From positions 1,550,001 to 1,614,000 of the forward strand of contig OZ017763.1 in NCBI GenBank assembly GCA_963969365.1: a stretch of 64,000 nt of DNA, read 5' to 3'. The notes under the pieces were generated by a model, which saw only the letters and a program-made list of their open reading frames with translations, made no database searches and had not been told where the DNA came from. The translations under genes and the position numbers were made by a program. Of the stretch, positions 686 to 64,000 are shown one piece after another. Origin of the DNA: Asterochloris sp. CNOR1 (lineage: Eukaryota > Chlorophyta > Trebouxiophyceae > Trebouxiales > Trebouxiaceae). The first letter of the stretch is position 1; every line of letters starts with the position of its first letter.

Positions 686-3600
686 CACTGGTGTTGTTGC
701 AGCTATCCTTTGCATGCCCGCCACGCTTTGGTCTGGGTGGTGCCTGGCCCCCATGACCCAGTCCCTCAGCTCTGGGTGCACACTGTCTGTGCGACCCAGG
801 CGCACAAAGGGCACCCCTGCAGGCAGTGCAGAGAAAGCTACCCTGCCCTGCACCTCACACTAAAGTCTACCACAAGTGTCACCATGCCCTGTGACTTAGC
901 AGCCTGCACGTGTTTCTGTCCACCTGCCATTCATCCCAGACTTCACAAGTGAGTGAGAGGCTCGAAGCATGAGAGTAGTTCACGTCTAGATGCGCCTTGC
1001 AAGACTGCTGGCCCACTAGCTGCTTTTGCTGTGCAGCTCAACCAGACTGGGTGCTCGCATACTGGCATCAGAGCCAGTTGAGGTGTTAGCAGGCAGTCAG
1101 CCTGGCATGGCAACGTCAGATACTGCTTTGTACAGGCGCACAATGGGTGCCCTTGCCCTCCCCAGGAACCCCGTCAGAGTCTGAACACTGCCACACCACC
1201 CCGACAGGGCATTCATCACTGTCTCAAGTCACCGCTCACCTGTGGCCTCCAGCTTGAGCAGAATGTTGTCCACAGCGCTGTTGGTGTAGGAGCTGATGAG
1301 CACGCGCCTGCCACGGGCGACCAGGGCACGCACGGCCTCCACAATCGTGCTGGTCTTCCCCGTGCCAGGCATGCCGATGATGAGGGCGTAGTCATGCGCG
1401 CGCAGCACGCTACAGCAGACGAACCCATGAGGGGTCAGTGAACTGCTCTGAATCACCATGCGAGGCAGGGATGTGTTTGATGGCGCAGATACACATGCAA
1501 ATGCACCGCAGCAGGCAACATCAAGACATCACAATGAACCTCAGTTCATTGGTCAGATTGCCCATACAAGGGAGGTGGGGCTGTGGTGACGCAGTCAGGC
1601 GCGCAAAGCACACTGCAGCAGGCAAGTTCAAGAGCCTTACGGCACATGGGATTGCTGCTAGGTGTTGTGAAACGACAGCTGCATAGTCAGGAGTGAGCAA
1701 CAACCTCCAATCAGGGCGGGGCAAGACTGAACAGCTGGATCTCTGCACAGCTGAGCACGGCGATAACATCAGGTGAGGGCATTCTGCATCAACAGCACAC
1801 TGCAGGGCAAGGGCAATGTGATACCCTGCGCTTTATATGACTGCGGTCAGAAAGAGAGACCCAGGGCCCCAGCCGCCCTCTGGTCCTTATTAGGACGATC
1901 AGCTGCCTGCAGCCGGTCGCAAACCGCCTCTAGGATGTGTGCCATCCAGCCAGTCAAACTCACTGCATGACAGCTGCCCTCTGGTCCTCATTCAGCCGGT
2001 GCAGATCCGGCAAGCATGTACCATCTCTGACTGCCACCAGCCTGCCGTCACAGGCCCCCAACGCTGGCTGCTGGGGTCTGGCAATATTGGCACTGCTGCT
2101 TATACCTGTGCCTGCTGCTGTGCCGCTGCCGGTGCCTGCACTGCCTGCTGCAGCCACATCAGCTGTGCCTGTGGTGCTGGCTGCTACAGCTGCAGCTGCT
2201 GGCATACTGGGGCCTGGCTTGGGAGCTTCCAGGTCAATCACAAGCTGGCGCAGGCGCTGTGCAGGGCCCTCACTGGCCTGCATGAGGCCTGCAGGCAGCA
2301 TCAGCTGGCTTGCAGAAAGGGTCTCCCTCGCGACACGGGGCTCCTTACTGCGTGACAGCGTGAGACCGGTCAGCCACATCAGCTGCACTGCACCAGAGCC
2401 ACCCGCCTGCCTGCCCTCATTGGCCTGGTGCTGCAGGCAACATCTGCTGCTTTGTGAGGCAGAGGTCTGTCTGAAAGCAAGCAGAGTTCTTGCTGGCCGG
2501 CATGAGACCTGCAGGCAATAGCACAAGACCCTATACACCCCAGGCAATAGCTTTCTTCTGCAGCTGCATGTAGACTGAGGCTGCAATACACACTAGACAC
2601 AGCAACCAGGGTGCCACAACCTCCCTGATTCATTGATATGACACAATGTGTACGCCTGCAACTCTCGGCTGCAGCTGCTCCTGTTGTCTCCTTGCTGCCA
2701 ACACGCTCCGACAGCATTCATGTCGTTGGGTGGTATGCTGTTGTTACCTCACTCAGCCGACACAGCACAAGGCAGCTGCAGCAAATGCACCCTCCAGATA
2801 CCCTAGAGCTGCAGCCACTGTCCTTCCTGTCTGCCTGTACATGCATCAATGGCGGCACGTCCTCACCAAGCAGGTTTCCGCGCAGCTGCACGTAGACTGA
2901 AGCCACCTCGTCACGATCCAAGCGCCAGCGGATCAGGGGTGAGGTCATGGCCTCCCGCAAAGGTTTCTGGAGGGTCAGCACCAGCAGCTCAGCGTCCACG
3001 CTGTGCACCACGGGGCGCGCCACACATGCATGCAGGCCTGCAGCCTCACATGAGACAGTGAGGATCTTGGCAGCTGCATGTTGCAGGGATGGTTGCAGCT
3101 GTCTGGAGCATGCAGCCCTGCAGCAAGCGTTACTGGATGGTCAGCACCAGCAGCTCAGCGTCCATGCTCTGCACAATCTGGGGAACCATCAGCACTGCGG
3201 CTGCACATGGGCCGACCTGGAGTGTTGGCTCCAAAGCTGTCTGGAGAGTGCAAACAAGCAGAAGCTTTTCTGGTGTCAGCACCAGCAGCTCAGAGTCCAC
3301 GCTGTGCGCATGGCAGGGCACGCCTGACATGTCTGCAACAATGGTTTGAGTCAGGCCAATAGTGCACTGAGTGAGTGGATGCAGCTGAAGGCGGTCAGCC
3401 TGTGTGATCCTCCCACGCCTGTAGCCCTGCAGCAGATGGGAAGGGAGCGCCAGCACCTGCTGTGCCACAAGGACACCGCACTGTGCTTGACAGGCAGCGC
3501 TAAACTAGCTGCAGCCCTGGAAAGCAAAGCTTAGCATCCACACTGTGCATAAAATGGCCTGTCACACATTCCCTCAGGCCTGCCATGACAAGACAGCCCA

Positions 3601-6600
3601 CAGCAGGCTGAAACAAAGGCTGCCACTGGGCACAGGGCTTCCACAGATAGTCCATGTACAGGCCGGCTTGAGCACAGCCAGGTCTCCTGCACAACATCTG
3701 ATCGAGTCTGCTGCCTTTAGGTGCTGGCCCAATATGGGCTGCAGACCGCTCACCTTCGATGCTGAGCACTGCCATGTCCCCTGCAGCAAAGCCGCCGTCG
3801 GCCAGGCTCCTGCTGCTCTGGCTGGGCCTGGATGCTGCAGGTGCATGACGTCGGAAGGTGTACAGCTGACCCTGCTTGGGGTGGGGGCGACATTCCACTA
3901 GGGAGAGGGCAGCCAGGCAGCGTCCAGCCAGCTCCCGAGTCCTCCCTGCGTGGATGTGCCCAGGGTTTGGTCAAGGTCTGCATTCATTCCAACAGGGAGC
4001 ACAGGCAGACGACCCCAGCCAGCACCTGCGCTCTCCCTGCGTGCAGCAACAGGGCAGTGACCAGGTAGAGGGATGAGGTGCTTCCCTTCAAGCAATCTGC
4101 TGCACGCTGCTGCTGCACATTCTGTTGTGCACAGTTAAAGTAGAGCTTCATTCCCTGACAGCACAACCCACCGGTTCTGCTCCAGACCTCAGCCTAGGCC
4201 CCTGCCCCTGCAAGAGCCACAAGTGTGCTGGTTTCCTACTGTTCATTGGTCGCCCACCAGTCATGCTTAAGATCTCTTGCACCTGGCTTCTCGGTGATTT
4301 AGGTTTGAGAGCCCACCTGTCATGCTCCAGATCTCAGCTCGCTTCTGGGTCAGCCCCGACTCTTCAAGAGCCACCAGGTGGTACCAGTGGGCAAAGAAGG
4401 CAGCGTGCTGTGCTGAGAGGTGGCCTGTGCGCTCCCGGAAGACCTCCCCCATCCCAGCAGACTCCGCGTCGCCCTGCTCCATGCCCTGCAGGCAGGACGG
4501 TCCAAATTCTTGCATATCAGCTGCTTCCAGAATGGGTTGTGAGCTCTTTGTCATAGGCAGCTCAGTGTGTGCATGCCACCCCTCCAGCCCTGCAGACCCA
4601 GCTGAGAACATGGCTGTGCTGGCTGTACACACACCTCACACATGGGAGAGACCTGCCGGATTTGGAGGGCACCCCATGGCTGGAAGTTCCTTTGCTGAGA
4701 GGGTCATGCAGCTGAAGTCAGGTGAGGGCTGACTGTGGACCAGGCAAGCAGGTGGTTTCATGCGGTGGCTCCATAAGGCCACTCAGGTGCCACCACACAG
4801 CGTGCACATGAACAGGCGGAGCGCAGGCTGCACACGAACAGGCCACATAGAAGCGTGTTACGCTCCCTGATATGCGTCACACCAGCGCACCTTGTGAACT
4901 AACGTGCAGGCTGCCACTTGAAAGCAGCGGGCACACTTGCGCTCGTCGCGGAGCAGTGGGGGCAGGGCAGCACCGGGGGCCATGTGGGCAGCCAGCAGGT
5001 TGCGCTGCTGCAAGAGGGCCTGCAGGGGAAGAGCAGAACCTGGTTGGCGCCTGTAGCTCGATTGCGTCGGGGGACTGTGCGCCACTCTGGTGTGCAGAGG
5101 CCAGCATTGCAGAGGCGCTGCTTGAACCAGGGCCTGCAGTGACACAGCATGGCTGCTACCTGAGCGTGTGTGCTCAGCCAGGAGTTCAAGCATTGCCCTT
5201 GGGCAGGATGAGTTGCAACAGGGGCCCCTTGCTCACTTCACCGCCTCAGGATCTTACCACGCCATATGAGGCGCAGCTCCGCTGCAAGGCTGCAAACAGT
5301 CCCCTGCTTGCCTGGATGGTGAGGTGGTGGTAGGGTATCAGCTTAGGGTCCCGGCTCCCCAGGTAGTGCAGCAGCCCAGCGTCCACCTGCCGCCCATAGC
5401 GCTCTGACATCAGCAGCAGGTACAGCTGCACCTGCAGCCGGCAGACCTTCCTTTGACAGGTTGGTTGACAGTAGCAGCATGTCGCATGGACAGCACCAAC
5501 AGCAGGTGCAGCCGACAGGCACTGCTGCAACAAGCGTGGCGCCAGATCGTGCCCACCTGCGCTTCATGACTCTCGTGTGGCTTGCCTGTCTTCAGCTCCC
5601 AAGGCACAATGGCCGTCCTTGGCTGGGCAGGACGGCAAGCCCAACCCTGAAAACCAGCGTCCTGCAGAACAGGGCAGGCTGCATCTGTCAACTTGACTGG
5701 GCCTAGAGCATCAAGCTGGCTCCACAGACCTGCTGACTGCACAGCAAATGGCAGGTTGCTCAGCACACGACCCAGAGAACCAAAGCGGACTGAGGTTATG
5801 CTGGGGCCTGAAGTAGGCAGCACGGGCAGAGAGACCACAGCTCACCTGCCCAGGCAGCCTCACATCCAGCGAGGCGTCAATCATCCCCTTCAGCCCATAC
5901 TTGGGGGCCCACACGCTCTCCTCGATGTCCACGACTTGCTGAACACACAGGGGCTGCTGGCTGGCCCCCATCTGTGGCCGCTGCAGCTGAGCGGCAGCCT
6001 CAGGGCCAGGGGCTGACCGCAGGAAGCGCTTGACCCAGGAGAGGATGCTGGGAATGGCCTGCTGCAGGCGAGCCATTGCCTACAGCCAGTGGAGCACACA
6101 GATTGACTATGATCAAGCAATGTGTGGTCCCTGCATATGCGCTTGACCCAGGTGGGGGGTTAGGATTTAGCGAGCAAAGCATTTGGGGTGGCGGCAGCCT
6201 CAGAGCCAAGGGGTATTTGCAGAAAGCGCAAAAAAGACCCCAGGAGGGAAATATGAGGGATGACCTGCTGCAGACAGGCCATCCCGTCCGGCGCAGACAC
6301 TGAGGGAGCCTGAGTGGCCCAGGGCTGCCTGTGCCACCTGCCACAGTCTACACGTCTGGCAGAAGGTCTGGACCCCATCGGCCCCTGTGTCAGGCCCAAC
6401 TCCCAGCACCCTGACCTGACCGAGGCCTCAGCAGCAGTGCAGGCAGGCACCCCTGAAGCGAGCCTCACCGTGTGGTCTGCCAAACCGGCCACCATCTGCA
6501 GCCATCTGTGAACTAGCAAAATGGGAAGCTGAGCCACATGGCCGGCACTGTCAACCTCACCCCATACCCTCCAGCCCATGTGTGACACAGCAGACTGCAA

Positions 6601-9600
6601 CGTATGGCATGACACACTAAAAGCCTAGCACACCTCACCGTCTGCTCTGTCAGTCCGACCTCCAGGAGCTTGTCAGCCATCCTGGCTATGATGCGCTGTG
6701 CTTCTGCCTGCATGCTGCCCATGCTGGCCAAGCGCTGGAGCAGGGCCACCTGCAGCAGGGGACAGGTCAGCTCAGGCCCCAACATGTATTGAGCACCTGG
6801 TGAGGCAAGTTGCCGGTGCCTGCATGCTGCCGGTGGTTGCCGACCAGTTCAGCAGCGTCACCTTCAGCACAGGAGGAGCCACATGTTCAGTCAAGTCGCA
6901 GGGGTGCACCATGCAACTGCCAGCATGCTTGCTGAGCTAGTCAATTGCTGCAGCATTGCCTGCTGCAGTAGGAGATGTCTGCTCAGGCCGCTGCATTCAG
7001 CATGCTGCTGATGCGCAGCCATGGCCAGCTGTGCAGGCCAGGTGCTTCAGCAGCGCCACCTGCGGCAGGACACAAGTCAGCTGCACATGGGCTGCCAAGC
7101 CTTTGCATGTGACCGTGCTGTGCAGGTTGAAGTCCCTTCTCCTTCCAGTCGACTGAGCATGCTGAAGCAGACATGGGGTTAGCATGGTAACACTTGAACG
7201 CTCAGCAGCGCCTGACTGCCCCACCGCTGCTGCTGCCCTCACAACTTCCCAACAACAGCTGCCAGATAGATGCCGTTGCGCACTTGGAGGGGTTTGAGAG
7301 CCTAGTTGCCGCTGCTGGCCCTCAAGCAGCACTGCAAGCCCAAAAAATGCAAACCCGCAGAAATTACAGGCTTGCCTGGGGCAGCCTTGCGGCGGCTGAA
7401 GCCGCTCGCAAAGGTGCTTCACTCCCACAGAACGCGTCCAAGTCTGACCTGGAACAGCTCATGCAGCAGTGTCCCCTCCACAGCCTTGTCGCTGCTGCTG
7501 CCCCCGAATCGCTCCTCGAGGATAGACTGACGGGGGCAGCGCATGCTGCCGCTGATGCGCGTGCCAGACAGCAGCAGGTCAGGGTGCAGCACCAGGAAAC
7601 CTGCAGGGTTTCCAAAAATTTGCTGCTGTTTGTTGCCCTTGCTGCGGTGCACATCCTCGACAGCAGCTGACTTTCAAACATGGAGTCGCACTTGAATCGG
7701 ACGGATGGGGCATGCTACCGCTCATGTGCATGGACTGGCAGCAGGCAGGGTGCAGTGCACCAGGAGAGACCCTGCCCAGAAGGGAAGTTCCCTAGTAACA
7801 TAAACAAGGCAGGCAGTCAGACTTTGGCAGGATGGTGCTGCCTTCATGCCACCAAGTCAGCACGAGTCGGCTCGTTGCACTGACAGAGCTGCCTGACAGG
7901 TGCAGTTGCAGTCGCGCCCTCAAGCAGAGAGCCGACAGACATGCAGACAGCACAACACCGACGGGGCCCACCTGACTGGTAGTCGCAGGTGGCATGCCAC
8001 TGCCCCTCATGCATCTGAGCGTCTGCCAGGACGTTGACTGCATCGCCTGCCCTCGCAGGGGTGTCCGCCCACCCGTGCAGCAGGTGCAGGGTCAGCAGCT
8101 GGCCCCCGCGTGTGTTGCGCAGCAGCAGCATCCTCTCAGATGGGCTGTCACTGACCTCCAGCACCATGTGGTGTACCAGGTCACGATCCCCCAGCAGGGG
8201 TTCTACCTGTAGGCAAGACACAACCTGAGGTTTTATGTTGACCCATTCTTGTGGTGACGGCACCATGCTGTGCACAACCTCCCACGTTTCCAGCAGGAGT
8301 TCTGACTGCAGGCATGGGCAGCATTTGAATTGGCAGTTGGTCCATTGTTGCTGCTCTAGCAGTGGCTCTGCCTGCAGGCAGGGGAGCAAAGAGGTTGGGC
8401 TGGCCGTGTCAATCTTGGTCTGTGTTGCTGTACGATGCTGCAAACTGCTTTGTTCATGATGCATCAGCCCGCAACATCCCTAGCAGGGGCTGTGCCTGTG
8501 GGCATGAGACAGCATATTGGGCTGGCTGAAGGTGACTCGCTGGTGTATGCTGCTGTGGGCATCATCTGTATCAGGTTGCAATCCCCCCAGCAGGGCCTCT
8601 GCCTGCAGGCGTGAGATCATCTTATGAGGCTTCCAAAGGTCATCAGCCTGAGGACCCGTTGAAGCCAGCAGTGTTATTGCGTGGGGATGTCAAGCGGCCT
8701 CAGATGGCAGAGCGGCAACCTGTGTGTCAGCTGTCGGGCCACAGCCACCAGCCTGAGGCTGTCATCATGCAACCGCAGCAACAAAGCGCATCAGGCAGAG
8801 CCATGTGCAGAGTCGGCTTTGCAGCAAGCAGGATGTCTGTGTCTGTCAAAGGATCAACTAAATGCATATCGCTGCTGACATGATACTGCAGCAGACTCAA
8901 ACTACTGGCGGCCCAGAATTCGCTGCTTGAATTTTTGGAGAGATCCCTGTCTTCCCTGAGCGCTTTGGGCTGGCTGACCTGCTGAAGCAGCCCGTGCACC
9001 TGATGGACCACTCTTGTGCTGTGTCCAGCAGGTATCTCTGCACCAAGAGCTGCAGCGTCTGGCTTGCCCATACGTAAGACTGCTGCTGGTGCAGCGGCTG
9101 CTGAAGTGGCTTTGCACTGGCTAGAAGGTGAGCAGCCCCACACGCCTGTGAGACCACCGCAGGTCTCCCAGAGCACACCAGCCCCTGCACCATTTGGCTA
9201 GCCTGGCGAGGCAGCACAGTCCCCCAGCTTCTGAGTGCCGGCACGCACCTGAGAGACCGGCCCTGCGCTGGCTGCAGCGGGGGTCTGCACAGGTCCATGC
9301 AGCGTCTTGCTGGCCTGCAGCTGCTGGCTGGCACGCTGTGAAGCCTGCTGGTGGTGGCTGTGGCCGCTGGGGCCAGGTGGCCCTGCCGCAGCCGGAATCC
9401 CTGCTCCACGCGGGGCATCTGCTGCGGCCAGCAGCTGCGCCAGCTCTGCCTCAAAGGCCTCCTCATCCCCAAACGCATTAGCTCCGAATCCATCATCCAG
9501 GATCCCAGCCACAGGGCCGCCTGCCTGCACCTGCTCCCGCTGCTGCAGCTGAAGCTGCTGTGCAGCCGCATGCACTGCCTCCTGCTGCAGGGACGAAGCA

Positions 9601-15460: not shown

Positions 15461-18400
15461 CTAAAAACGGCTTTCGTCATCACTGGAAGCCGTCACAGCG
15501 TCCTTGGGGACTTTGCGGACCTGTGCGCAGGCATGACATGTTTGGGCACACAACAGAAGCACCCTGGTGCGTACAGACGTTGCACAGGATCAGGTCTGCA
15601 GACGCTGCACATAGTCAGGTTTGTACTTTGAGTGGGGGTTGCAGTCTGCAAGACTTGCAGCGTGCTTGTGCTGCTTGAGAGGAGCGGACTGGCAGGTGAT
15701 TCTGAGGCACCATGCAGGAAGGAGGTCATGCACCAAAGCAGAATCATGTGCAGCTCTAGTGGTGTGTCCTGGCAGACGGTGCAGAACGGAAAATGATCTA
15801 CTTCAGTAAATTTCTGGTACGTCAGAATACTCAAGCGGTGTCACCAATTCATATACAACCCGACCAAGGCTTCTGCATGCCATTCACCTGTCTCAACCTG
15901 GCATGGGCAGAGCCTCACCTGAATGGCATGTGTGGAGGCCTGCCGCCAGATGGGCTGCCTGCCGCTCTGCACAATTGCAACCTGCTGCCCTCCTTTGACC
16001 AGACCGCGACTCTTAAGCTCATTGATGCCCCTGCAGCATCAAAAAATGATTTTTCCAACAATCAGGAAGCAGACCAGGCCAGCATCAGCCACTTTGAGCA
16101 CTGGCACCTTGGATTGGGGAAGCATTTGATGCATATACAGCCCTGCAGCAGCATTTGTTAAGCAGGCAGCAAGGCTACCCACACTAGTTTCGCCACGCCT
16201 CAATGGTGGAGGTCATCAACTCCCCCTTTAAAGCAGCAAAGGTATGTGGCAGGACATGGTTGCATTGCCGGCAGAACCGTTTTGCTTGGATTGTACACGC
16301 TGAGCATCAGCATCAGACCTTGACAGACTGGACGTAAGCCAAACAGTCCTCTTGCTGCTCTGGCCTCAAGACCTGAAGCTCACAGCTTGAAGATCTCTCA
16401 ACCCCTGAAGGGTCTGTCGTGCCTGAGCTCCATCCCCTTATTTACCAAAAGTGGGCATGATCACCCTCCTCACCTAAGGTGCACAGAGCTGACAGCCCGA
16501 GGTACAACATTTCCCTCCAGACTCTCAGTGAAGTCAGCAACTCAACAACTTCCTAACAGCAGGGGTGGCCCCTGCCCCTACACTCATGTATCCAACACAC
16601 ATGCACAGGCCTGGCAGCACACTCACTTGTCAAAGGCGGCATCAGAGGTCTCGTCAAATTTCAGGTACAGAGGAACGACGCCGTGGTAGAGCGCCAGGCG
16701 CCGCTGCACGTCGCGGTTCTCTGTGAACGCGTAGATGGGCTTGTCGGGGCGGTAGTGGGAAAGCAGCGCTGGCATGTTGCCCTGCAGACCAGCAAGCAAA
16801 GATAAAGCTACAGCGGCACTGGTTGGTCACAACAGTTCAATGTGCATGTTGGGGCATAGTGTGAGAGCATGAATGACAAACCTCTGCACACTGGCAAGCA
16901 ACGTTCACTTGACGTGGCCCCTCTCAACCTTCATGCATCAGTATACAGGGACCCTGCTTATTGTGGAAGCCACAACGGAGTTTTGAAAGGTGTCTGCCAG
17001 GCGTGCTGTTGACAATGACTGCGGCACCTGCCAGGACAAGTCCCTGGCCTGCCAGCGGGGGCCTTGACCATGGCAGGCACAGTACTGGGCGGAGGAGTCA
17101 GAATTTGGAGCCAGCATCAGTTCACTACTGCCTGTGCATGCCCTCCAGTCTGGTGGCTTCCAGACTTCATAGCCCTTTGAGAACCCACCTTCCTTGTGAA
17201 GACTACCAGGGAGGTGCCAATGGTGTTGGCCATTGTGGTTGCATGGTAGGCAAACATCTCAGACAGGCCAGGGTTGCTCATGCGCCCAGAGCCGTCACTC
17301 ATCCCCGGGGGCACAATCCAGTCGATGGGCTCAGCATCCTCACTGCCATACCGCCGGGTGCCCTGCAGACAGGTTGGGGAGGCAATGTTGATTGCATGGG
17401 TGCGCTGCCGGTGATCTGAGTCAATGAGATGGGCTCTGACGACCACACTACTGTGTGCCCAGCCAGAGGGGGACGATGGAGTTGGTGAGGCATGTGTCAA
17501 AAGATGGCAAAGCTGCTGCAGATCAGCATGTCTATGTGATGCTGGTGTTGGCAAGGCGGTGCGAGTGGGTTGCTTGGCACAAAGGCAGCATAGCACATCC
17601 AACCAGGTACATGTGTACCACGTGAGGTGCCAAGGCTGTGCACCGACCATGCACACACTTGCAGCTGCAATAACACCGCCAGGTGGCAGCATGACATCCA
17701 ACTGAGAATAGGACAGCAGGTGCACCTTCAACGCTGCGACCAGCAGTGGCATCTGCCACTCATTCAATGCTCCGCAATGCCTGTAACACCTCTGAGCATG
17801 CACTTCTCATCTCCCAGCTGTGACTTCGCATGTGCAGCCTTCACCAGCAGCAGCACCCTCAAGAGTGTCCTTGTGAGCTGCAGTCGCCAAGCTGCTGAGC
17901 ATGCCCGCTTGCCCCCATACACCCTGTTCTGAAGCTTGCCGCCCATCAGGGCCAAGAGTGCCCCTGACCTCACTTTCCCCCTCACCTCCTCCCCCAACCC
18001 GCTGCACAGACCACTCTACTCAGGCAGCCTACAGCTTCCGCACATTCTGAGTGCCCGCCGCCTCAGTCAGCAGCTGAAAAGCTGCAGTTGCTGCCCAAAT
18101 TCACCTTGCCGACTTGGTACCTGCCTATCGGCCGCTTCTCTCCTCCCATCATTTGTGCAACCACCACTTTAGTCCACCTGATGGCCGAGGATGACTGGTT
18201 CTGTCTGCAGAGCCTCAACTGACATGACGTGTATACTGGCTGTAGGCAGAGGACTAGGAAGCCTGAAAGTAAAACACCCCGCAGCTCACCCGGTAGCTGA
18301 GCACGCCCAGCTCTGCCGGCCTGGCTAATGCTGACATGCCTCAGAAGGGAGCATGTCATAGGTGGGCAAAGTTACGCCTGCCAGGCAGGCCCGTTGATCA

Positions 18401-21400
18401 GCATTCCGGCGCATTGCATTTGTACGTGCACTTTTTTTGGTGCACATCCAGCTGTGTACATGGGTCACACCTGACAGGCTGTCCACATTGAAAGGGTACC
18501 TCACATTATGAAACTTGCCAGCGTGCAGCTTACCTGGTAGCTGAGCATAGCCCGCTCTGTCCGCTTGGCCACAGTTGCCATGACATCCACAGACTTGAAT
18601 GGGAACTTGCCATAGGCAGTCTCCCCAGAGAGCATGACAGCGTCTGCTCCCTCACGAACCGCAATGGCAATGTCTGACACCTGGCACAGCACATTGCAGC
18701 AAGGTCTCAGCATCGTGTGACATCAAGGAAGATGGTCAATGCATCTACTCTGCATCTGGGCTGCAGACGACTCAGCGCAGCGCAGCATGTGACATGCTAG
18801 ATGGCTGACTCTATCAGCAGAGACCAGCACGGGTTGCTTTACATACAGGCCCCAGCAAAGTGTGCAATCATACAACGATGCTCCGATGATTCGCGCGCTG
18901 TGCACAGGCCCAAGTGGCAGACAAACAGCAGTACGCAGCATGTGCATTATCAAGACGTGATGTAACACTGTAGCAAGCACCAAGCCACATCAGGCCTGCT
19001 GGGCTGCAAGTGGCTGCCATTGACCCCTGGCATATCAGTGACCGAGCGCAGCCGCACATGTGAACAAGTCAGCATTGAGGGTGCTGACCTCTGCCCTGGT
19101 GGGGGTGGGGTTGGTGATCATGGACTCCAGCATGTTGGTGGCCACAATGACTGGCTTGCCACGTTTGCGGCACCCCTGCACAATACGGCTCTGCCAGTAG
19201 GGCACCTGCAGCACATGTGCTGCACAAATCAGCAACATAGAACAAAATCAAGGCTGGACCACCATGGCTGGCTTGCCAGGCTTGCAGCATCCTCACATAT
19301 TGCGTCTGCCAGTCGGCACCCGCAGCCGAGGTGCTTCACCTGCTAGCAAGCTGGATCCAATGCAGTGGCAAACAGACTAGCAGAGCACAATCTGCGCAAC
19401 ATACTGCGTGCGCCCCTGGGAGCATGCTGCGAGGATGTGGTGCTGCCTCGGAGGCCGCAGAACAGGCAGTGCTGGGCACACTGCCTGTGACAAGGTACTA
19501 GTGGCCGCTTGTGCAGGTAGGCCTTTTCCTGTGATCTGGTCAATGCAAACCATCTTGGCCATGTGCAAGACAGCTGGGCAGACGTTACATATGCAGGCAG
19601 CTGCAGTGCATGACTGACCTGCTCTGCCTCAAGTCTGCTCCGCTTGCTGGCCCCCTGATTGAAAAAACCCCACCTGGCATACAGTACTTTCATAATGGAA
19701 GCTTGCACCAGGACACACCTACTGGCCCGGAGTCGGTGCCATGGCAGCACAAATGGTGTCCCATGGCTGGCAGTTGGCGTGCAGCACAGACAGCTCAAGG
19801 TCAAGAAGCACCTCTGTGTGCAGCAGCCCGGCCACAGAGACATGCCATTGCAGTACAATGGACTCCCATGCAGGACGCTGGCAAACAGCAGACGCACCTG
19901 CTCTACCGGAAGCTCTGCCCCCAGGTCACCACGAGCCACCATGGCGCCGTCGACAGCATCCAGAATCTCCTCCAGGTGCATCACACTGTCAGCGCTCTCA
20001 ATCTTGGCAAGCACGCCAATGCTGGCGCCTGCAGGCACAGCTTGGAACAATGAGGTCAGCAGGCCTACAGAACATGCTTTGCAGGTCAACTGACAGCCAT
20101 GTGCGCTTTTAACATTTAGAGCTGCATATTGGCCAGCACACTGAGGCAGGCGCCTGCAACAGACATGCATTGCGGCGTTGAGACTGTCTAATCAAAAGAC
20201 AGAGCATGTGGCTTATGATCACGCTGTCATTGCTGTTGATCTGGTAGAGCACGCTCCTGCCGACACAGGCAAGCGGCGAAATGTACAGCGAGCACCTCTT
20301 CACACTGTGCTGCGCTCCTCAAACAACACGCCGCAGCATGTGCATGCATCACTCTGGGCTGCCCAGCTCTGACCTTCCCATTCACAGCAGCAGAGGCAAG
20401 ATGCATAATCTTGCCTCTGCAAAAGTGCACTCTTCAGATAGTTTGACCACAAGCTTCCTGTGCACATCAACCTGGGACCCCCACTGATGCAGCAGATCAC
20501 CAGCACAGCTTTACGTACTCACCTCCATTTGCCTGATATGTGGTGTCCTGTATGACATCACTGCACCCAGCCGCTGCAATGCACCAACTGTTGCAGTGGC
20601 GCCTTGCAGGCCTCTGCGCACCTTGCTTGGCCAAATACCGCTTGAGCTCATAGATGACATCTGCATTCCTCACAAAGGATAGTGCATAGTAGTCCACTCC
20701 CACATCTATGCCAAATTTGAGGTCCAGCCAGTCCTTTTCTGTGATGGCGGGGAGGTTGGCGCTCTTGCCGCGGATGTTGAGGTGGCGCCTGCAGCCAGGT
20801 CAGGGGATGCAGCTTCAAGCCAGATGCGTGTGACAGAGGTTTGCTGGTCTGTGCTTGCGATGTTTGAAAAGACGGTCCTGTCGCGACTGTTCAAGTGGCG
20901 CCTGGTGGCACAGGGAAAGGGATGCAGCTCACGTCACCACTGCTCTTCCCTAGTTGTTCAAGCATCTTGAGGCTGAGCATGCCATCAACCAACAGCAGAC
21001 TGTCCCCTGCCCCAACATTCAATTCGCAACAAATGCACCCCTCAAATCTGCCGCCAAGCAGCCAAGCAAGACAGCTCACCATGTAGTCATGCTGCTTTGT
21101 CCACCAGCAGAGCCTCATGCCCACAAGGTCACACAGCAGACAGCTGCTGCACACAACGCAAAACACAGTCTTTGAGCCTCATGTGCCCACCTAGAAGCCA
21201 TGATCCCTCCATCAATGACCTCGCACTCCACGTCCTTCCCGCTCTTCTTCAGCAGCTTGAGGCTGAGCATGCCGCCGTCCACCAGCAGGGTGTCTCCCTC
21301 ACTGACATCATCTATGAAGCCGTCGTAGTTCACTGAAATGCGGCCATCGCGGCCATCTGCGCCCTCCTTGGTGGTGAAGGTGTACTTCTGGCCTGAACAG

Positions 21401-23325: not shown

Positions 23326-24066
23326 CTGTGGGGCAGACAGCAAAGAGGGTTGGGGAAGGGAACATGAAAGGATCCTCCGGGGTAGCACTTCAAGGTACCA
23401 GGGCCGTCAGAGGCTGCAGAGCACAGAGCCTAGAGTTACATGGCTGTAGCTTCTGTGGCCGACGAGGGCCCATGCAGTCATCACGGCTGGCTGACACCTG
23501 ATCCTGGTCTTGCATGGCTGGCTGGCCATGCTTTTAGCTGCAGAGGACAGAGTGATCAGTACTGTCAAGCAGCCTGGAAGGACATCTGGAAGGAGACAGG
23601 TCTCAGGAGCCGTAAGCTTTAGCTGATGCTGAACAACACCAGCAAGGTTGCTTGTTATTTCTGTAAAAGGGTCGTGAAGCCTGCAAGGTGGTGTGCTAGC
23701 CATGGGGAGCAGTAATGGCCTGGCAGCTGGCTGCTTGCGGCGCTTGTGCTGCAGGGGAGACGGCCAGGGTCCCGTGCAGGGCGCAGAGCATTGCAACGAG
23801 CAGCATTGTGCTGGCTGGGCTAGGGAACCCAAAGGCTCAAGCAGTATGCAGGCAACATTCCGAGGGGCAGGCTGGCAGCCTGTTGCAGCTAATCAGCATA
23901 GGGTGTACCACACTACTGACAGACCCCTGCAGGAAGCACATTGGCAGGTCGGCAGGATGGCACGGCCAGACTGCATGGGCAGGTCTGGTCTTGAGATGGT
24001 AGATGTGACATGACCAAGGGGGCAGAGTCTCTGGGAATGGTTGGTGCATGAATCAGACTGTGCTGC
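23326..24066. other. Presumed 5' region of pyruvate kinase
   Basis: The ankyrin gene ends at 24067 and the first clear pyruvate kinase exon begins at 23325, so the missing transit-peptide exon and promoter should lie here. A minus-strand open frame from 23832 starts MGSLAQPAQCC and is rich in Ser, Pro, Lys and Arg; it is a possible transit-peptide exon, but I found no donor with the right phase. Confidence 0.35.
23497..23545 (-). repeat. Copy of the acceptor edge of pyruvate kinase exon 23166-23325
   Basis: The minus-strand translation KSMASQPCKTRIR, preceded by a CTCTGCAG acceptor, matches [13 protein letters not shown] of the real exon. It lies about 170 bases upstream of it. Confidence 0.8.
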
Positions 24067-44200: not shown

Positions 44201-47200
44201 GCGCACTGCCTGGCGCACTGCCTGGCGGGCTGGTCTTGCCATCTGCCGACTCTAGCATGACGATCGACAACTGCTGGCTGTGCTGCCTGGCAGGCTGTCT
44301 TGAGAGAGCTGGCATCAGTGCGGCTGCACGGCTTTACGGAGCGGGAGCTGAAGCAGGCTCGTGCCACAGTCATGGCGGAGCAGGAGAGTGCCTTCATGGA
44401 AAAGGAGCAGGAATACGCCACAGTGAGTTGATAGGACCTTGGATCTAAGGGGTCAGAAGGAGAGCATTACTGGTTCTATGCAGATTCACACAGGCTCTGG
44501 CTGCATTTCAAGCCGCTAGGTGCTTTTTGGCCTCATCTGTTTCTGTTTGTCCTGCAGCGCAGCACGCAACAAACATAGGCATCACCCGCAGATTACATCT
44601 CAGACTGCATCGCTGCCGGGGTTGGTATGCTGTGGAGCCTGACCTTTCAGCTGATGCTTTCCCCTTCGCACTGCTGCTGAGGTCACACTATGAAAACGTT
44701 CAAAAACGCGGTTGGAGGCCTGATTGCGATATGTGAGCACCTGCTGCCCTGTCACAGCCCAGACGCCCCAAGCAGCAGCATGCCTGAGGCTACATACATG
44801 CTGAATGCCTGAGGCTACATACATGCTGATGTACCTGAGCGAGGCTTCCTGTGCCCTTCAAGAACCTTCTGAGAGAGAGAGAGAGACCTCAAGACATGCT
44901 GGCAACCAAGATGCGCTCTTTCAAGTGAGGGCTGGAGGGTCCAACCAGTCCCCAACTGGATGTAAGGTTTCCTTTGTTGCCCTGAGCTGCCAATGCAGAC
45001 TGTCATACGTTTGCAGACTCAGTCTTGTTGTCCTGCAGGATATACGGGATGAGTTCCTGTCGCACTTCCAGACAGGTGACTTCATCTGTGACCGAGTCTA
45101 CGAGGTGCAGCTGGCCAAGACTCTCCTGCCCCAGATCACTCTGGAGGAGCTGCAGGGCCTGGCAGAGGAGTACAGGAGCTCCAGCAACTGCCTGGTCAAG
45201 GCGGTCAGCCACGCCAAGTGAGCCTGCTGCAGCCAGGGATTGTGGATTTGTCAGCTGATGCCCTGCAAAAGGCAATCTTTCTGGTTGTCTAGCTCCCATA
45301 CGCAGGCCCTGCACAAGCCTGGTAGAGTTGGCGAAAGCATGGGTCCTCCTGCAGCTGCTGACAGTCAAGCCCAAGGGTACCTCATCTCATCTAGGACCCT
45401 TACAAGATTGCATACAGTATCTGTGTCTAGTGTGGACAAGCTGCAATGAGCTGTCATCACAGTTGACATGCTCCGCTCTTGGAGGAGTGAGAACACACAG
45501 TTTTGGGCAAGCCTGCCCACATGGCCTTTCTGTAAAAAGCTTTCATCAGCCATCAGGCTTGAGCTGCACAACCCCTAGCATGGTCTGTTGAGACAAGCAG
45601 CCGCTTTCACGAATTGCAACCTCATGCTCGAACCCTCTCACTTATGTGCAGGTCGGCCAGTGTTGAGGAGTTGCGAGCTGCTGTTATCACAGTGGACAAC
45701 CTGGAGTCTCATGGCGATATAAATCCCTTCCCAGCTGATGAAGGCCCTGACAGCATCCTGCCACAGCTGCCTGAGCCTGGGGCCATTACCTCGCGCACTG
45801 AGTGGCCAGAGATTGGGGCCAAAGAGCTGCAGCTGAGCAATGGCATGCGGGTAGGTGGCTGCGCTGACAAATTTGCTTGAGGGCCTTCATTACCAGGCAA
45901 AGAGAGGTTAGCTCAGCATCAACTGGCCTGACGTGTGAGCCACGGAGGAGTGAGGCCTGAGGTCACACATGCATTGATTGCTTTAAGAGATAGCCACAAT
46001 TGAGGCTGACTCACGGCATGCAGGTGTGTGCTTGTCCCATCGCTGCTTGTCCCACTGCTGCTCGAGAAGGATCTCGGATAAGATCAGGGCCCCTCTTCTG
46101 CCTCAGCTGAGCCTTAGTACTGCTGCAATGGCCTACTAGTGTTGAGCATGGCTATGATCAGGTGCAGGCGACACACACTTGGTGGGCGCTTACAAGAGGC
46201 AAGAGCTGGCTGGCTCAAACAGCTCAGCTTTGCTCTCACGCACAGTTGCCAGTGGTTTGCGCCTGCACCCATCCCTGGTCCCACTGCAAGCAGCTTGCCT
46301 GCAGAGTCGACTAGTACTCAGCCTGGCCCATAGTGCGGCCTGCATGTCCCTTCACAGCCTTCCCGCACCTTCCTGCTGGTCACTCATCAGTGCAGGGTTT
46401 GGCCATCTTGCCTGTGCAGCAGGCGGCGCACAGAAGGATAATGGAGTGCTACCTCTCTGCCCGTCAGCCTTACCCTCGCACACTGCTGTAGGTGGCCTAC
46501 AAGAAGACTGACTGGCTTGACGACCAGATCCTGGTCACAGGGTTTGCGGCCGGCGGCCTGACTGAGGTGCCCCAGGAGCAGTTCCGGACCTGCAGCATGG
46601 CAGTCACCCTGGCAACAGAGCTGGGGCCCTTTGGCATCAAGACGCAGGTGAGACGTGTCACGGGGGCTTGCTGGCAAAGGGGTTCCCAAGAGCAACTCTG
46701 GACCTGGACCTGCAGCATTCAAGTCACCGCGGCAGTGGACCTAGGTCCTTTTGGCATCAAACTGAAGATGGACAAGAGCTGCAATCTGGCCACTCCTCCT
46801 GGCCAGGCTCCTAGGCAACCTCAGAGGCTGCTGCAGAGGGTGGCTCAAAGAGGGCTTGCAGCTTAGAGCTCCCCAGGGCCCCATGCCCCCAGTCCTGTCA
46901 CCATTTGACAACAACCCACACTAGAAGGAGCTCAGAGCATAGTGTAGTCAGCACCTTGCGAACGCAGCTGAGGCTCCTTGGGAGTCACATTGCCATTTTG
47001 CATTGCCTCCTGTGCTTGTGCAGAGCAAAATACCTTACCTCAGGCACATTTGATAGCTATAGCAGCATACTGTGTCCTACTTGTTGCCAGTGCAGGATGA
47101 GTTGGGCCTGCAGTAGGCAGTCTTGACGGCTCTGATACCCTGCTGCAATGGCCGCCGTGCCAGTGTAGCTGTACTTGCTGGCACCGTCATTGTGCTGCAA

Positions 47201-50200
47201 CCTGCACTGTTACAGTGCAAGGCCTTATGGACTGAACTGGCTTTGGCAACATTCTGCCAGCTGCATTGTGCTGTTGTGGTAATGGCTGGGCTTGCTGACA
47301 GGCACAACCGTTATGCTGCAAGGCATACTTTGACAGTGCAAGACTTCTTGGGCTCTGCTGGCCCCGGTGACCTGCGGCAGTGTGCACCGTGCTGGTGCAA
47401 ATGGCTGGGCTTGCTGGCAGGCAGCATATCTGTGCTTTAAGCACGCACTGGGACAGGGCAAGGGCATCATGGGCTTCATGGGCTCTGCTGGCTGCAGTGA
47501 CATGGTGCAGTCTGCATTGTGCCTGTAGGGCTGGCTGGGCTTGCTGGCAGGTTGCATTGTCAAGCTGGGCCTTGCTGTGTATGCACATGCTGCATACTCA
47601 ACTGTGCAAATGCAGGACTTGGTGGACCTGTTGGCAGGGCGGCGTGTGGACTTGAGGGCAGCTGAAGGCGCCTACTGGAGATCCTTTGCAGGCAGGTGGA
47701 AGCAGGCACTGAGTTTGGCAAAGGGTGCCAGCTCCAGAGGGTGTCGTGCTGTCGCAGCCTTACAGCAAATGGGCTGTTACCAACGTGCAGTGCAACCTGC
47801 GATGGACTTGTGCAGCTGGCAGGGATGCGCACACGTCATGCTGCTTGCTGTCCTTCGCGTGCATGCTGCGCGTGAGATGTGTCACATCACAAGCAGCTGC
47901 TACTGTGCGACGCCTGCAGAGCAGTTTCCAGAGAGCCTCCTGGCCCCAGGACACAACATCCTATGAGTCTCTGTGGGAGAGCAGTGAACGTGCAGCTGGA
48001 CTGCAAAGCCCACAATGTTTCATATGCAGTGTGCCTGAATCCCTGCCTATGCCTGCCTTGAGAGGAGCAGTTAGTTCCGCCACGCTGCATGCAGCTCATG
48101 ATGACGCACTGCCAGAAGCCCTGCTGGTGCCTGCCTGCGAGGCATTGTCGCCTATGCTCATGGATTGCTACAGACACATCGCAGCAAACAGTGCCTGAAG
48201 CATTGTCATTGGCATGGATAGCACTTCACTATTATTGCAGTGTGCCAGAAACTCTGCCCACCACAGCTTGCAGGGGATGAAGGGAGCAAATGGTGTGAAT
48301 ATGGCATGCTGCATGCAGCTTGGTGATGCTCAGTGCCTGCAGCCCTATGACTGAAAACACCAGCATCGCCTATGATACATGCAGTGCCTGATGCCCTGTT
48401 GGTGCCTGCCCTGCAGGGGAGCAGTCCCCTGTGGACTTGGACTGCTGCATGCAGCTCATCCACAAGCTGTTTACCTCCACAGTCCACCCAGGCCGGGAAG
48501 ATCTGGGGACATGCATGAGGTGCGCTGCAAGCTGTCTGCATAAGGGTCGGCTGCAGCATCTCCATCTGCGTACGCAGCATGTGCTGCCAGGGTGCGTGCA
48601 CCTGCTGCTGCTGCTGCTGCTGTGGCGCTTCTGGTGCTGGCTTGCGGGTATATTGAGCCAGCAAGGACCGCAGAGGCTGCAGCAGATCTGGGCGCAAGCC
48701 GTGACACAGCAGCTATACATGCTGGACATATGGCAGTCCAGCCTTGCTGTGTCGAACAGACTTGCACTCACAAGTCAACTGCAGGTACCTGCAGTAATTA
48801 GCCAGGTGGCAACACTCCATCCAGCTGTCTGCAGCAGTCCAAGCAGGGGCAATTGGATGCTGGAGAAAGAGCAGCTCCAGCCCCTGCTGCAGGTACTTGC
48901 GGGAAAGCCTGGTGGCAGCGCTGCGCAACCCCATGGAGACCTTTCAACGCAGAGCAAGGTTCATTAACTATGGTGAGCATACGAAAGACCATCACAGCAA
49001 GCTGTCATGCAGCCCAGTCCCGGTTCACAGTGGCCATGTCATGCAGCATAGTCCCGGTTCACAGTGGCCATCTTCGGCCTAATAAAGGAGCCTGGGTCTG
49101 CCTGAAGAGCACGCAGAGCGCAGGCAACGTCTCAACTCCACATGTCAAGGGGCTCACCCACCTGCTGCAGGTCAAGTATATTTCTATGAGCCCCCCACCA
49201 TGCAGCAGCTGGAGACCCTGGATGTTGACCTAGCCTGCCGGCACTTTGCCGCCGCCTTCCGCAACCCTGCGGAGTTCACGCTGTGCTTCACAGGGGCCTT
49301 TGAGGTGAGCCATGGCCCTCTTAGTTTGCTGTCCACCCAAGCAGCTCATTGCTGGGGTCTGTATGGCACTGTCACTGCCTCTCACAACCTCTAGGAAACA
49401 GTGTGCTTTGCAGGTGCCTTTTAGGTGGAGCCTTCAGTTGCTGTTTGACACCCTGTGCCAGGCCACCCTGTGTCTGGCCTCACAACTGGAATTGAGGGTG
49501 ATTATGTTCATGCCGTGTCCATCTGATGCCTGGTCAAGCAGAGACAGGCCTTAGCCTTCTGACTGCGTTTGCTGCCACCATCTGAATGCGGACCTGCCAT
49601 GCTGCTGCAGGAGCCAGACCTGTGTTATGCGTTACTCGATGGCTAGTCAGTTGCTGCTGGCTCTGTAATGCTGCTGCAGGAGCGCCGAACCCCTTTCGCC
49701 TGTCTGGATGGGCCCCGAGAATCCAACTACCACATCTTGGTCTACTACTCAGCCAACCAGATTATTGCTTTGTCCTGCTGCAGGAGCCAGACCTGTTGTG
49801 CCCAGTGGGGCAACACCTGGCCACCTGGCATGCCACTGCACCTCACCCTGCTGTTTGCTGTGTGCAGCAGAAGCAGACCTGCTGCATTCAAGCCCAGCAG
49901 CGCTACCCGTCAGCTGCAGGTGCTGCAGCCGCCGGGCCTCTGAGCCAGGCCGGCTCTGCCCATTCCATCAGGGGCTGGCCCTCACTGGTGTACTCACCTG
50001 CTGCTGCTGCTGCTGCAGGAGCCAGCCCTGCTGCACCCCAAGTCCAGCACTGCTGCCTGTCAGCTGCTGGTGCTGCAGGTCTCAGGCCTGCTCTGCCCAT
50101 TCCAGCACCAACTGGCCCCAGACTCAGCACTCACCTGCTGCTGCTGCAGGAGCCAGACCTGCTGCGCCTGGTGGAGCTGTATCTGGCGTCCATTCCACCA

Positions 50201-54041: not shown

Positions 54042-57000
54042 TCAGACCATGGTGTCACCCCTCTCGTTGATCCCAGGCATTGAGCTGGTGCCCCTGAGGC
54101 TGGCCCCTCCCTCAGGGGAGGCCACGCCGCTGGTGGACTCGGTGAGGACCGAGGTCTCTTGCTGGCCCTGCACTCCTGAGTAGGCCGGCAGGGCCACTTT
54201 CCCGGGAGGAGGTGGGACGTCCACATCGTGCTCGGGGTGCAGCGTCAGCGTCTGCAGTGCAGATGGGACACGCGTCTCAGGCAAGAAGACAAGATGTTGC
54301 TAGCTTGCAGAGGCGCATGAGGACTGCATTCAGAAGTTGAGAGTCTGGGAGCGCTGTGCTGGAGTGCAGCACAACTCACCGTGTTGGCATGCGTGCGGAA
54401 CAGAGCCTCATAGATGATGGCAGCCAGAATAGCTCCTGAGAAGGGGCCCACCCAGAAAATCCATTGATTGGTCCAGCTGTGTGAGACTGCTGACGTCCCA
54501 AAGGAACGTGCAGGGTTGACACTGCAGGAACACACCACCTTCAGGCCAGGCTGGGCTGTGCACATTGCAGAGCGGGGGGCCTGCCTGGCCAGACAGCAAG
54601 GCATTCTGCGTGATGTAGGGATGTGACACCCTGATTGCAGCATGCATCTGCGGTGGGCGTATGGGCGAAATGCAGTAGCACACACAGCGAGGTGCTGTAC
54701 AGCCCACAACCACAGGCAAAGGTCGTGACTGCATACCTCCGTGCAGTTCTGGTTGGGACGGCTGCCCAGAGGAGCCGTAGCCTTCAGCTGCCCCAGATTA
54801 TCAGCCCAGATTATCACAAGTCAAGCTGCCCAGAGCAGGCTTGGGGTGGACATGGCAGCAGCACAGCAGCTCACCTGCAGCCGTCAATGGGGATAGCCAC
54901 CAAGTGGCACAGGAACAGCGTGATTCCGATTGCAAAGGGAGCCAAAATCTGCAGCCAGCAAGAGGAGCCTCAGTGATGCGAACCTCAGTCCGTGACGGTT
55001 TCTGAGCCAGGACCTCTGAATCAAGGCAATGCTGAGCCCGGAGCTCTTTAAGTCACGGCAATGCTGAGGTGTGTCCTGCAGGCCTGTCTGTTCAGTGAAG
55101 GATGTGCCATCCTGAGTCTGCCAGAGGCACTAACACAGATGACCCTTTGTTGCTGCATGCTTGGCATGCTCAGAACACGACGCAGGCCATGACACTCTTG
55201 CAGGCGATAAGCATGCCCACAGAGAGGGGTCCCGCGCTCATTGGCAAGTGGGCAGTGCTGATGGCACCGGGGCATCTGTGGCCACACAAGAGCCATGTGC
55301 AGAGAGCGAGCAATGGCAGCTACTCCATCACTACGACTCACTGGCAGGTGGGCAGTGCTGATGGCGCGCTGCGCGTCTGTGGCTGCGAACACGACGATCA
55401 CAAAAATGCAGGTCAGAATGGTCTCCACGCCCCAGGCCTGGCGCTCGATAACGCCATTGGCAGTGTTGATGTGGTTGGCTCCGCCCAGAGCAGCATTGAA
55501 ACCTGAGGGGTCAACCTGAGGACAGGCAGAAGGTCACTTCAGTGGAGCTTGTTGGTGCAGGGGCGGGCTTTGCCAGCCTAGCAGTGCAGCTGAGGTGTGT
55601 GAGTGCGCAAGTTGCAAGCAAGCCACAAATGCTTGATGCTGTGGTGGTGCTCACACACTGCTACCATGGCAGATGTGGTCAACAGCCTAGGACAAGGACT
55701 TAGTACGATGCATGCCTGCACCACCATGCAGGTCGAGGTATGCAGCATCATGCAGACTCAGGGTGGTGACTGACTGCCTGTAGACAGTGTTGTCTGCATG
55801 TGCAGGCAAGACTGTACCTCATCAGCCACCAAGCCGTCAGCAGTCTGTCAGCACTGAAGCACTGCTGATTTGGCAGTATGCCTGAAGGACTAGAGGCTGT
55901 CCTCCACTGATGGCACCCTACACAAGTGCATTCAGCTGGCTGACAGGAACCCCACTCACCGCTTTCACGAGGGCTGAGCCGGTGCAGGCGCCCAGGCATT
56001 GGAAAATGATGTAGAAAAACGCCCGGGGAATGGAGATTTTGGCTGTCAGCACGAAGCCCAGCGTGACAGCAGGGTTCAAGTGGCCACCTGCAGTGACAAG
56101 CACAGCATAAGATTTTGTGGAGCAGCGATCCCCAGCACCAGCCAGTGCATCTGCACAGCATTGTGCTTGACGAGGCAGGCGCAGACCTGTGAGTGCTGGC
56201 TCCCACACCATGTGTGTTACAGGCCTTGGCAGAGCAGCATATGCAGGGAGCCTTGGCGCAGCAGCATATGCGGAGTGCCTTAGTGCAGCAGCATATGCAG
56301 GGGGCCGACGCTGAAGACGCACAGCAGGGGCGGACCAGGTCAGTGAGACTGATGGGACTCAGTCTGCCGTGTGATGTAGTTCAACAGTGAGTGAACACCG
56401 CATTTTGTGAATGGCAACAGCCAACCAGAGCCTCACCACTGAAGGAGGCTGCGGCATAAACCATCGCAAAGATGGAGAATCCAAACGCGAAGGCAATGTT
56501 GAGCAGCGTGGTCGTGTTCCCAATGAAGCACGACCCTGGAACGACATTTGTCAGAGCGGTGTCGCTGCCGGCTCCAGAGGCCGAAGCTGCATAGACACAA
56601 GGAGGGCGTGAGACATGATCAGGTAGCACACATGCCATGCTCGACACTGACTTGGGGTTGGAGGCAGATGATTGCCCACTGGCCGATGCCACAACGCTGC
56701 CTGTCATGCAGGGCAGCAGAACGCAATTGGTTTTTTGTTTCAGCGACACCCAGGCCTGGGGGCGCCGACTAATGCATGCAGCTCTCCCAAAACTGTCTTC
56801 CACCTGTGTCAGCAGTGTGGCAGCCACTGGTGATGGTGCCAGTGGCCAAGAAGATGAACAGTGTGGTGAAGAGGTACTCAGCGAGGAATGCCTGCAGGGA
56901 GGCATGCTCCTTCTTGCTAGGACTGGCTGGCTGAATTGCCCAGCATACATGCTGGAAGCCGGTCCAGAGCGGGGTGCATCACAGTGCAGCAGAATGCTGT

Positions 57001-64000: not shown

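Follow-up and report, generated by a model that had tools for sequence, protein, structure and literature searches.

Introns of Asterochloris sp. CNOR1 contain degenerate local copies of their own exon edges, probably the remains of short tandem duplications

In this study, we asked how introns of the green alga Asterochloris sp. CNOR1 have come to contain what look like degenerate copies of the edges of their own neighbouring exons. The question arises from a stretch of 64,000 nucleotides of contig OZ017763.1 (positions 1,550,001 to 1,614,000, hereafter the window), for which an initial annotation had described such copies and proposed that tandem duplications across splice junctions enlarge introns and may build up decoy splice sites. 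Intron growth without transposons is hard to study, and intron sequence soon loses its history; for each fossil copy, however, the exon is a preserved reference, so that events can be recognised and dated one-sidedly.

The assembly comprises 56.4 Mb in 18 large contigs and further contigs of 43 kb, 110,056 bases and 215 kb, the last with rbcL; for Asterochloris glomerata, a genome of 56 Mb with 9 introns per gene is described in PMC6652019. Our sample consisted of the window, 18 and later 5 more 10-kb stretches of the large contigs, and three 3-kb loci. A total of 253 kb was used for the 45-nt scan, the diagonal search, the gapped scan at a score of at least 85, the flank profiles and the repeat coverage, and 303 kb for the intron counts at a gapped score of at least 80 and the later tests. 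Except where backed by protein homology, junctions are predictions of an HMM, which was seeded with 11 pyruvate kinase exons labelled by hand and trained by Viterbi iterations. After training it returned 9 of these 11 exons exactly; the final HMM called 9 of the 10 pyruvate kinase introns exactly, and the yield was 452 introns in the smaller sample and then 537 in the 303 kb. From the 45-nt scan onwards, predicted exons shorter than 36 nt and introns shorter than 60 nt or longer than 2500 nt were dropped, and introns shorter than 150 nt were left out of the comparison of query positions (edge, mid-intron, interior). Two introns, one a whole-unit duplication and one of low complexity, were left out of the early donor and acceptor flank profiles and the spacer analysis, and the former also of the anchored, score-matched and free-shift flank tests. 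Permissive long alignments were discarded, as these simply fill whatever space is allowed. Pfam identified an M16 peptidase, an ABC transporter, MIP aquaporins, Dna2 and an AAA domain; the ABCG subfamily label is that of the initial annotation, the domain evidence here being for an ABC transporter. Beta-mannosidase was identified by PDB matches, a Pfam search giving no match. The joined pyruvate kinase protein (515 residues) can be aligned to solved pyruvate kinases over residues 11-499, and protein alignment also backs a GC-AG donor (AAG/GCAAGT, the slash marking the junction) of a pyruvate kinase exon at 23165/23166 of the window; C is found at +2 in about 8% of HMM-called donors.

Exon-edge copies exist well beyond the level of the controls. 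At a gapped score of at least 80, 98 of 1058 exon edges in 303 kb have a degenerate copy in the same orientation in the adjacent intron, as against 15 that match introns of other genes and 13 that match reverse complements. That both acceptor and donor edges are copied was confirmed: 56/530 donor and 42/528 acceptor edges match their own intron, compared with 10/530 and 5/528 for other-gene introns and 4/530 and 9/528 for reverse complements. At this threshold, at least one copy is present in 90 of 537 introns, and 20 junctions have two or more. When 45-nt edges were compared with the adjacent intron at a score of at least 30 (253 kb), matches were obtained for 23/440 donor and 14/438 acceptor edges, for 6/407 queries from the exon interior (60-105 nt from the junction) and for 0/407 from the far edge. 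These 37 of 878 edges stand against 1 for the reverse complement, 0 after dinucleotide shuffling and 1 for an other-gene intron; the similarity thus does not persist in shuffled introns, a control that the initial annotation had put forward. Gapped alignment of 60-nt edges at a score of at least 85 gave 73/890, as opposed to 3 for reverse complements and 0 for reversed sequence. Direct repeats joining exon and intron amount to 56 pairs in 253 kb, with identities of 0.72-1.00 and a median length of 40 nt. Some copies derive from the exon interior rather than from the edge, for example that at 20961-21007.

In the window, 34 of 109 introns carry a copy (gapped score of at least 80), as compared with 56/428 elsewhere (Fisher p 2e-5), and there are 1.24 copies per kb of intron in the window against 0.53 in the rest. 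The window is therefore atypically copy-rich and, because it was chosen for this very feature, is unsuited to rate estimates. Copy-bearing introns number 8/10 in the pyruvate kinase stretch, 11/25 in M16, 7/15 in the DNA2-like stretch, 2/3 in beta-mannosidase, 1/7 in aquaporin-1, 2/25 in ABCG, 1/6 in the ankyrin-like stretch and 2/10 in an unnamed stretch; the remaining 8 window introns have none at this score. The individual copies are listed in Table 1. At pyruvate kinase exon 22161-22284, cccctgtgcag is followed by GCTGTGGTGGACCTGGTGAAGG, and 136 nt upstream, in the intron, by GCTATTGTGGACCTGAAGAAGG. Two neighbouring aquaporin (MIP) genes on the minus strand (54042-57322 and 58546-60163) have common exon sizes where compared and different intron lengths, for example 393 and 145 nt, the donor-edge copy lying in the longer intron; when these paralogs were compared for polarity, their introns were too diverged to give any. 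Coding repeats of 81 nt (27 amino acids), ankyrin-like by eye, occur at 25116-25898, 26400-26504, 37430-37732 and 38078-38194, with related pieces about 12 kb apart, and a partial segmental duplication within the window is possible.

Table 1. Exon-edge copies, junction-crossing repeats and their source exons in the window
Feature	Position	Strand	Remarks
DNA2-like exon	2867..3037	-	HMM; upstream exon piece of same predicted gene matches Pfam Dna2; acceptor edge has three copies in upstream intron 3038-4316
Acceptor-edge copy 1 of exon 2867-3037	3144..3188	-	score 144; overlaps direct repeat (86%, 58 nt) at 166 nt
Acceptor-edge copy 2 of exon 2867-3037	3279..3337	-	score 177; overlaps repeat (97%, 33 nt) at 301 nt
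Acceptor-edge copy 3 of exon 2867-3037	3528..3579	-	score 125
Donor-edge copy of exon 4317-4485	4172..4222	-	score 100
Acceptor-edge copies of exon 6639-6749	6811..6861, 6903-6960, 7006-7059	-	scores 120, 119, 88
Acceptor-edge copy of exon 7449-7600	7710..7767	-	score 153
Pyruvate kinase gene, 11 hand-labelled exons	15461..23325	-	homology; edge copies in 7/10 introns with this labelling
Donor-edge copies of exon 18534-18680	18290..18340, 18440-18487, 18178-18230	-	scores 129, 82, 103; first copy 244 nt from the donor, GT present (read directly)
Acceptor-edge copy of exon 19089-19205	19264..19319	-	score 140
Interior copy (60-107 nt before donor) of exon 21191-21392	20961..21007	-	81%, 47 nt, at 290 nt
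Acceptor-edge copies of exon 22161-22284	22365..22420, 22537-22585	-	scores 99, 92; read directly
Acceptor-edge copy of exon 23166-23325	23500..23534	-	score 130
ABCG 43-nt tandem unit, twice	33065..33149	+	95% alike; over predicted donor 33082/33083; 18 nt exon and 24 nt intron matched
M16 donor-edge copies of exon 38558-38696	38878..38909, 39106-39162	+	scores 124, 130; M16 domain
M16 47-49-nt tandem array, 2.4 copies	40830..40945	+	91% matches; over predicted donor 40837/40838; repeats GCCCAGAG/GTGAGGCCTGGGGTCAC
M16 donor-edge copy of exon 42211-42329	42380..42435	+	score 116
M16 donor-edge copy of exon 43102-43215	43397..43427	+	score 110
M16 donor-edge copy of exon 46492-46647	46708..46760	+	score 157
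M16 run of five or six acceptor-edge repeats like ctgcag/GAGCCAGACCTG	49602..50180	+	spacing by eye 66-147 nt; repeats of 22-23 nt, 96-100% alike; at 49600-50150 several acceptor-like repeats called exons by the HMM, exon assignment there predicted
Aquaporin-1 donor-edge copy of exon 55342-55515, at 100 nt	55242..55282	-	score 146
Beta-mannosidase acceptor-edge copies of exon 62671-62830	62878-62929, 62979-63030, 63078-63121	-	scores 160, 142, 100; part of 100-nt tandem array 62802-63037 beginning in the exon (81% matches); 125-nt repeat (83%, spacing 100 nt) over the acceptor; protein continuous over the junction compared with PDB 4cvu

The copies are local and direct, as had been stated from the window. 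In a diagonal search of 253 kb, in which near means 20-1000 nt and far 4-5 kb and in which pairs are alignments, so that one event can yield several, exon-intron repeats gave 56 near, 0 far and 0 inverted pairs. For intron-intron repeats the counts were 56, 0 and 2, for intergenic repeats 6, 0 and 0, for the mixed intergenic classes 4, 0 and 0, and for exon-exon repeats, in part coding repeats, 32, 4 and 0. Most copies (109/123) lie 60-350 nt from their own junction, the host introns having a median length of 454 nt. Copies farther from the junction do not score lower (rho 0.05, p 0.61, 123 copies), and the nearer copy is the better one in 13 of 25 successive pairs; therefore an outward age gradient is absent. 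The spacing of successive copies in one intron clusters near 97-112 nt in 8 of 25 pairs, taken over all loci, which may be chance.

A small number of cases are young enough to be recognised as whole duplicated units. When 1074 junctions were scanned for ungapped repeats extending at least 6 nt into both the exon and the intron, 19 donor and 20 acceptor rows were obtained, some of which may share an intron, and the intron part reaches at least 20 nt in 6 of the former and 6 of the latter. Donor rows with an identity of at least 0.94 include ABCG at 33082 (unit of 43 nt, 18 nt exon and 24 nt intron, 95%), M16 at 40837 (unit of 47 nt, 11 and 24 nt, 94%, with a third copy at 96 nt) and one in L024 (unit of 64 nt, 16 and 8 nt, 96%). 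The first two are plain tandem duplications over the donor, intron included, so that the ABCG donor-edge case of the initial annotation is real; homology over the whole unit is seen both there (33065-33149) and in the mannosidase array (62802-63037). Separately, at 4454-4633 of L018, a predicted intron holds recent-looking direct repeats, 111 and 57 nt long and 93-95% identical, with spacings of 213-226 nt.

We consider it likely that the copies are neutrally decaying remains of frequent, short, local tandem duplications rather than products of a process aimed at junctions. Short tandem duplications with units of tens to a few hundred nt would arise throughout non-coding DNA, and one that happened to span a splice junction would leave a copy of the exon edge inside the intron. 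Such an event would be tolerated if the outermost donor or acceptor stayed in use, because the mRNA would then be unchanged. Copies of the exon interior or far edge would be rare, because the unit must be long and a wholly exonic duplication alters the protein. Older copies presumably arose as the young units did; the outer sites would be those that are spliced, as protein homology indicates for pyruvate kinase and for one mannosidase junction, and repeated events would lengthen introns. The recurrent tandem duplication over junctions that had been proposed is thus visible in the young ABCG and M16 donor units; a special role of junctions was not supported.

That exon edges are so conspicuous among these repeats would be explained by selection, which fixes the exon half of each pair. 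Normalised to 10^7 compared pairs of positions, nearby direct repeats number 6.47 for exon-intron, 6.12 for intron-intron and 6.15 for intergenic sequence. When 45-nt queries were compared with their own intron (introns of at least 150 nt, score of at least 30), the donor edge matched in 25/415 and the acceptor edge in 13/414 cases, mid intron in 14/426, intron start in 6/426, intron end in 8/426, exon interior in 6/366, far edge in 0/366 and intergenic sequence in 2/134. Taken together, the edges (38/829) exceed the three intron positions (28/1278) by a raw ratio of about 2.1. However, with the exon half held by selection, an exon-intron pair would stay identifiable for roughly twice the time of a pair within introns, and simulated visibility is 0.362 when the exon is fixed and one lineage decays against 0.182 when both decay, a factor of 2.0; the mid-intron rate is near the edge rate even uncorrected. 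Because intron-intron repeats are equally dense and the edge excess equals the visibility factor, junctions are not clearly special as duplication sites, and a junction-specific process is unsupported once visibility is corrected for (2.1 versus 2.0). Half-and-half queries spanning the junction matched in 20/426 and 21/426 cases (41/852), about 2.2 times the intron positions; for such half-conserved queries the expected gain is under twofold, so that this value lies a little above expectation and counts against plain duplication.

The flanks of the donor copies bear on a different reading, in which some mechanism linked to transcription or splicing, such as replication stalling or RNA-templated repair at splice sites, places a copy of the exon edge and its splice signal in the intron nearby. 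The older donor copies agree with the exon at 0.74 over positions -15 to -1 and the donor through about +5 (GTGAG), and fall to background from +6. In anchored tests, 4/37 to 6/37 donor flanks exceed the null 95th percentile, compared with 0.60-0.90 in simulations; for acceptors the values are 12/36 to 14/36 and 0.60-0.83. Score-matched simulation of plain duplication predicts an ungapped match of 0.48-0.50 at donor +6 to +11, where 0.279 +- 0.035 was observed and a model in which the copy ends at +6 predicts 0.25-0.26, so that the anchored comparison favours a limit at +6. On the exon side, homology does not extend past about 60 nt (mixture further out: donor 5-8%, acceptor 3-7%), and for most of the spacer that separates edge and copy no source could be recognised. 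Against this, two of the three donor-crossing repeats with an identity of at least 0.94 carry 24 nt of intron, and an unmatched simulation with older copies gives 0.335, near the donor data. When flanks are allowed to shift freely, the donor shortfall is small, 9/37 (24%) exceeding the null 95th percentile compared with 30-43% in simulations (acceptor 9/36, 25%, against 44-48%). Acceptor copies fall between the two models (0.50-0.52 predicted by score-matched plain duplication, 0.426 +- 0.037 observed), some copies come from the exon interior, and repeats between intron positions are just as dense although no splice site is involved. An analytic estimate and the anchored tests would suggest that donor copies hardly ever include intron, but the free-shift shortfall is weak and the young repeats do include intron. 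Plain duplication thus accounts for most copies and for the youngest cases, and the remaining shortfall could reflect fast indel turnover just beyond the constrained donor or a real limit to copying at the splice signal. Overall, we regard splice-bounded copying as unlikely. There is only a slim chance that splicing machinery or co-transcriptional events set the copied segment (edge through donor +5, or acceptor plus edge), with introns growing as they accumulate copies of their own junctions. Should the sharp donor limit at +6 persist among many more annotated junctions, it would indicate a mutational process linked to splicing.

The unexplained spacer and the fit of the end-limited model to the donor flanks would also agree with insertions at exon-intron edges that are flanked by target duplications, whether from staggered double-strand break repair with filler, the filler between copies mostly being without a recognisable local source, or from introner-like elements. 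In searches of the genome that skip very common words, the 8.2-kb pyruvate kinase stretch matched itself only, and the 15.7-kb M16 stretch gave two short matches, one from window 38078-38194 to window 26400-26504 (74%) and one, the single short match elsewhere, linking C10 with a 54-nt piece of a predicted intron (48583-48636; 85%). No dispersed element or family was found with these two stretches, and the earlier remark that the copies fit neither transposons nor introners is upheld to that extent. In addition, the repeats here, of median length 40 nt, differ from the short direct repeats of break repair as described in PMC3443670, and the young cases are tandem units without filler. We therefore think it improbable that flanked insertions produced the copies.

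Returning to tandem duplication followed by decay, the copies themselves behave as neutral sequence. Among 4278 bases aligned in 89 copies, those that differ number 315/1425, 316/1432 and 402/1421 at the first, second and third codon positions (.221,.221 and.283), the slight third-position excess fitting synonymous change in the true exon, and 16 of 81 gaps are multiples of three. A coding or alternative-exon function is thus unsupported by codon positions and gap lengths, and the copies decay neutrally. It might be argued that selection keeps them as decoy splice sites, alternative exons or splicing regulators, as GT/GC or AG is present in 33/56 donor and 22/45 acceptor copies that reach the junction; however, GT and AG are preserved no better than neighbouring bases, change is equal at the first two codon positions and gap lengths are independent of the frame, so that the conservation of splice signal or reading frame that marks a functional decoy or alternative exon was not seen in the copies. 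Copies that reach the 10th percentile of real sites (25 donor, 13 acceptor) are a small minority of equally good intronic sites, of which there are 2.92 donor and 1.46 acceptor per intron over 537 introns, and the suggested build-up of decoy sites finds no support in these figures. Because codon change is even, gaps are blind to frame, GT and AG are not preserved and site-like copies are few, the copies give no indication of being functional or of adding an important load of decoys, and maintenance by selection is very improbable. Still less credible is an artefact of the gene caller or of low-complexity sequence rich in CTGCAG and TGCTGC, for although CTGCAG is the most frequent 6-mer of the window and reverse complements also match at a lenient score of at least 70 (57 as against 147 of 890 in the own intron), homology backs the pyruvate kinase and mannosidase junctions and the near-zero controls at strict scores rule this out for the strict set.

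Introns with a copy have a median length of 454 nt and those without of 249 nt, which fits growth by duplication, although longer introns also offer a larger target. Density rises from 0.31-0.53 copies per kb at intron lengths of 120-450 nt to 0.92-0.97 in introns exceeding 450 nt; the shortest class (60-120 nt) has 0.78, a value based on 5 copies. The proposed enlargement of introns is plausible but visible only in part, recognisable exon-edge copies making up only 3.27% of intron bases. After subtraction of the background, about one in seven introns has a fossil (90/537 less about 15), a frequency that makes intron growth by tandem duplication directly testable.

Several known systems resemble the situation described here. 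Introners, which according to PMC9860276 are found primarily in fast-evolving lineages such as green algae, likewise change intron content; however, they are families of highly similar introns in many genes (PMC9860276), whereas the copies here are local and gene-specific, and no such similar sequences in many genes were found with the two stretches searched. The short direct repeats at both intron ends of Daphnia-type break repair were not seen either, the repeats here having a median of 40 nt and lying mostly inside the intron. That introns can originate from tandemly duplicated exon sequence is discussed in the review PMC3443670, a tandem-duplication origin has been described in Drosophila (PMC2891723), and for intron gain of the AGGT type by tandem duplication of exon segments the Rogers model and Gao and Lynch 2009 are cited in PMC4974935. 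AGGT-type gain shares with our cases a tandem duplication near splice motifs, but there the unit becomes the new intron, with the motif supplying GT and AG, which is not so here except in one candidate. In this candidate for AGGT-type intron gain, an 89-nt predicted intron (L005, 8412-8500), the start resembles the start of the next exon and the end that of the previous exon, the unit equals the intron length with CAG/GT at both ends, and 89 is not a multiple of 3. The potato RdRp gene, in which a tandem genomic duplication spans an intron-exon boundary (PMC4974935), comes close to our observations in that the duplication is local and direct and takes in intron 3' and exon 5' sequence together with the splice signals. 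As described in that source, the potato case is a new intron in one gene, backed by relatives and RNA, whereas here mostly degenerate copies lie inside existing introns, in 90/537 at a lenient threshold. In the open literature, searched with limited wording, we found no paper on exon-edge copies inside the introns of one genome, and what looks new here is their frequency and form, as decayed copies inside existing introns across a genome sample.
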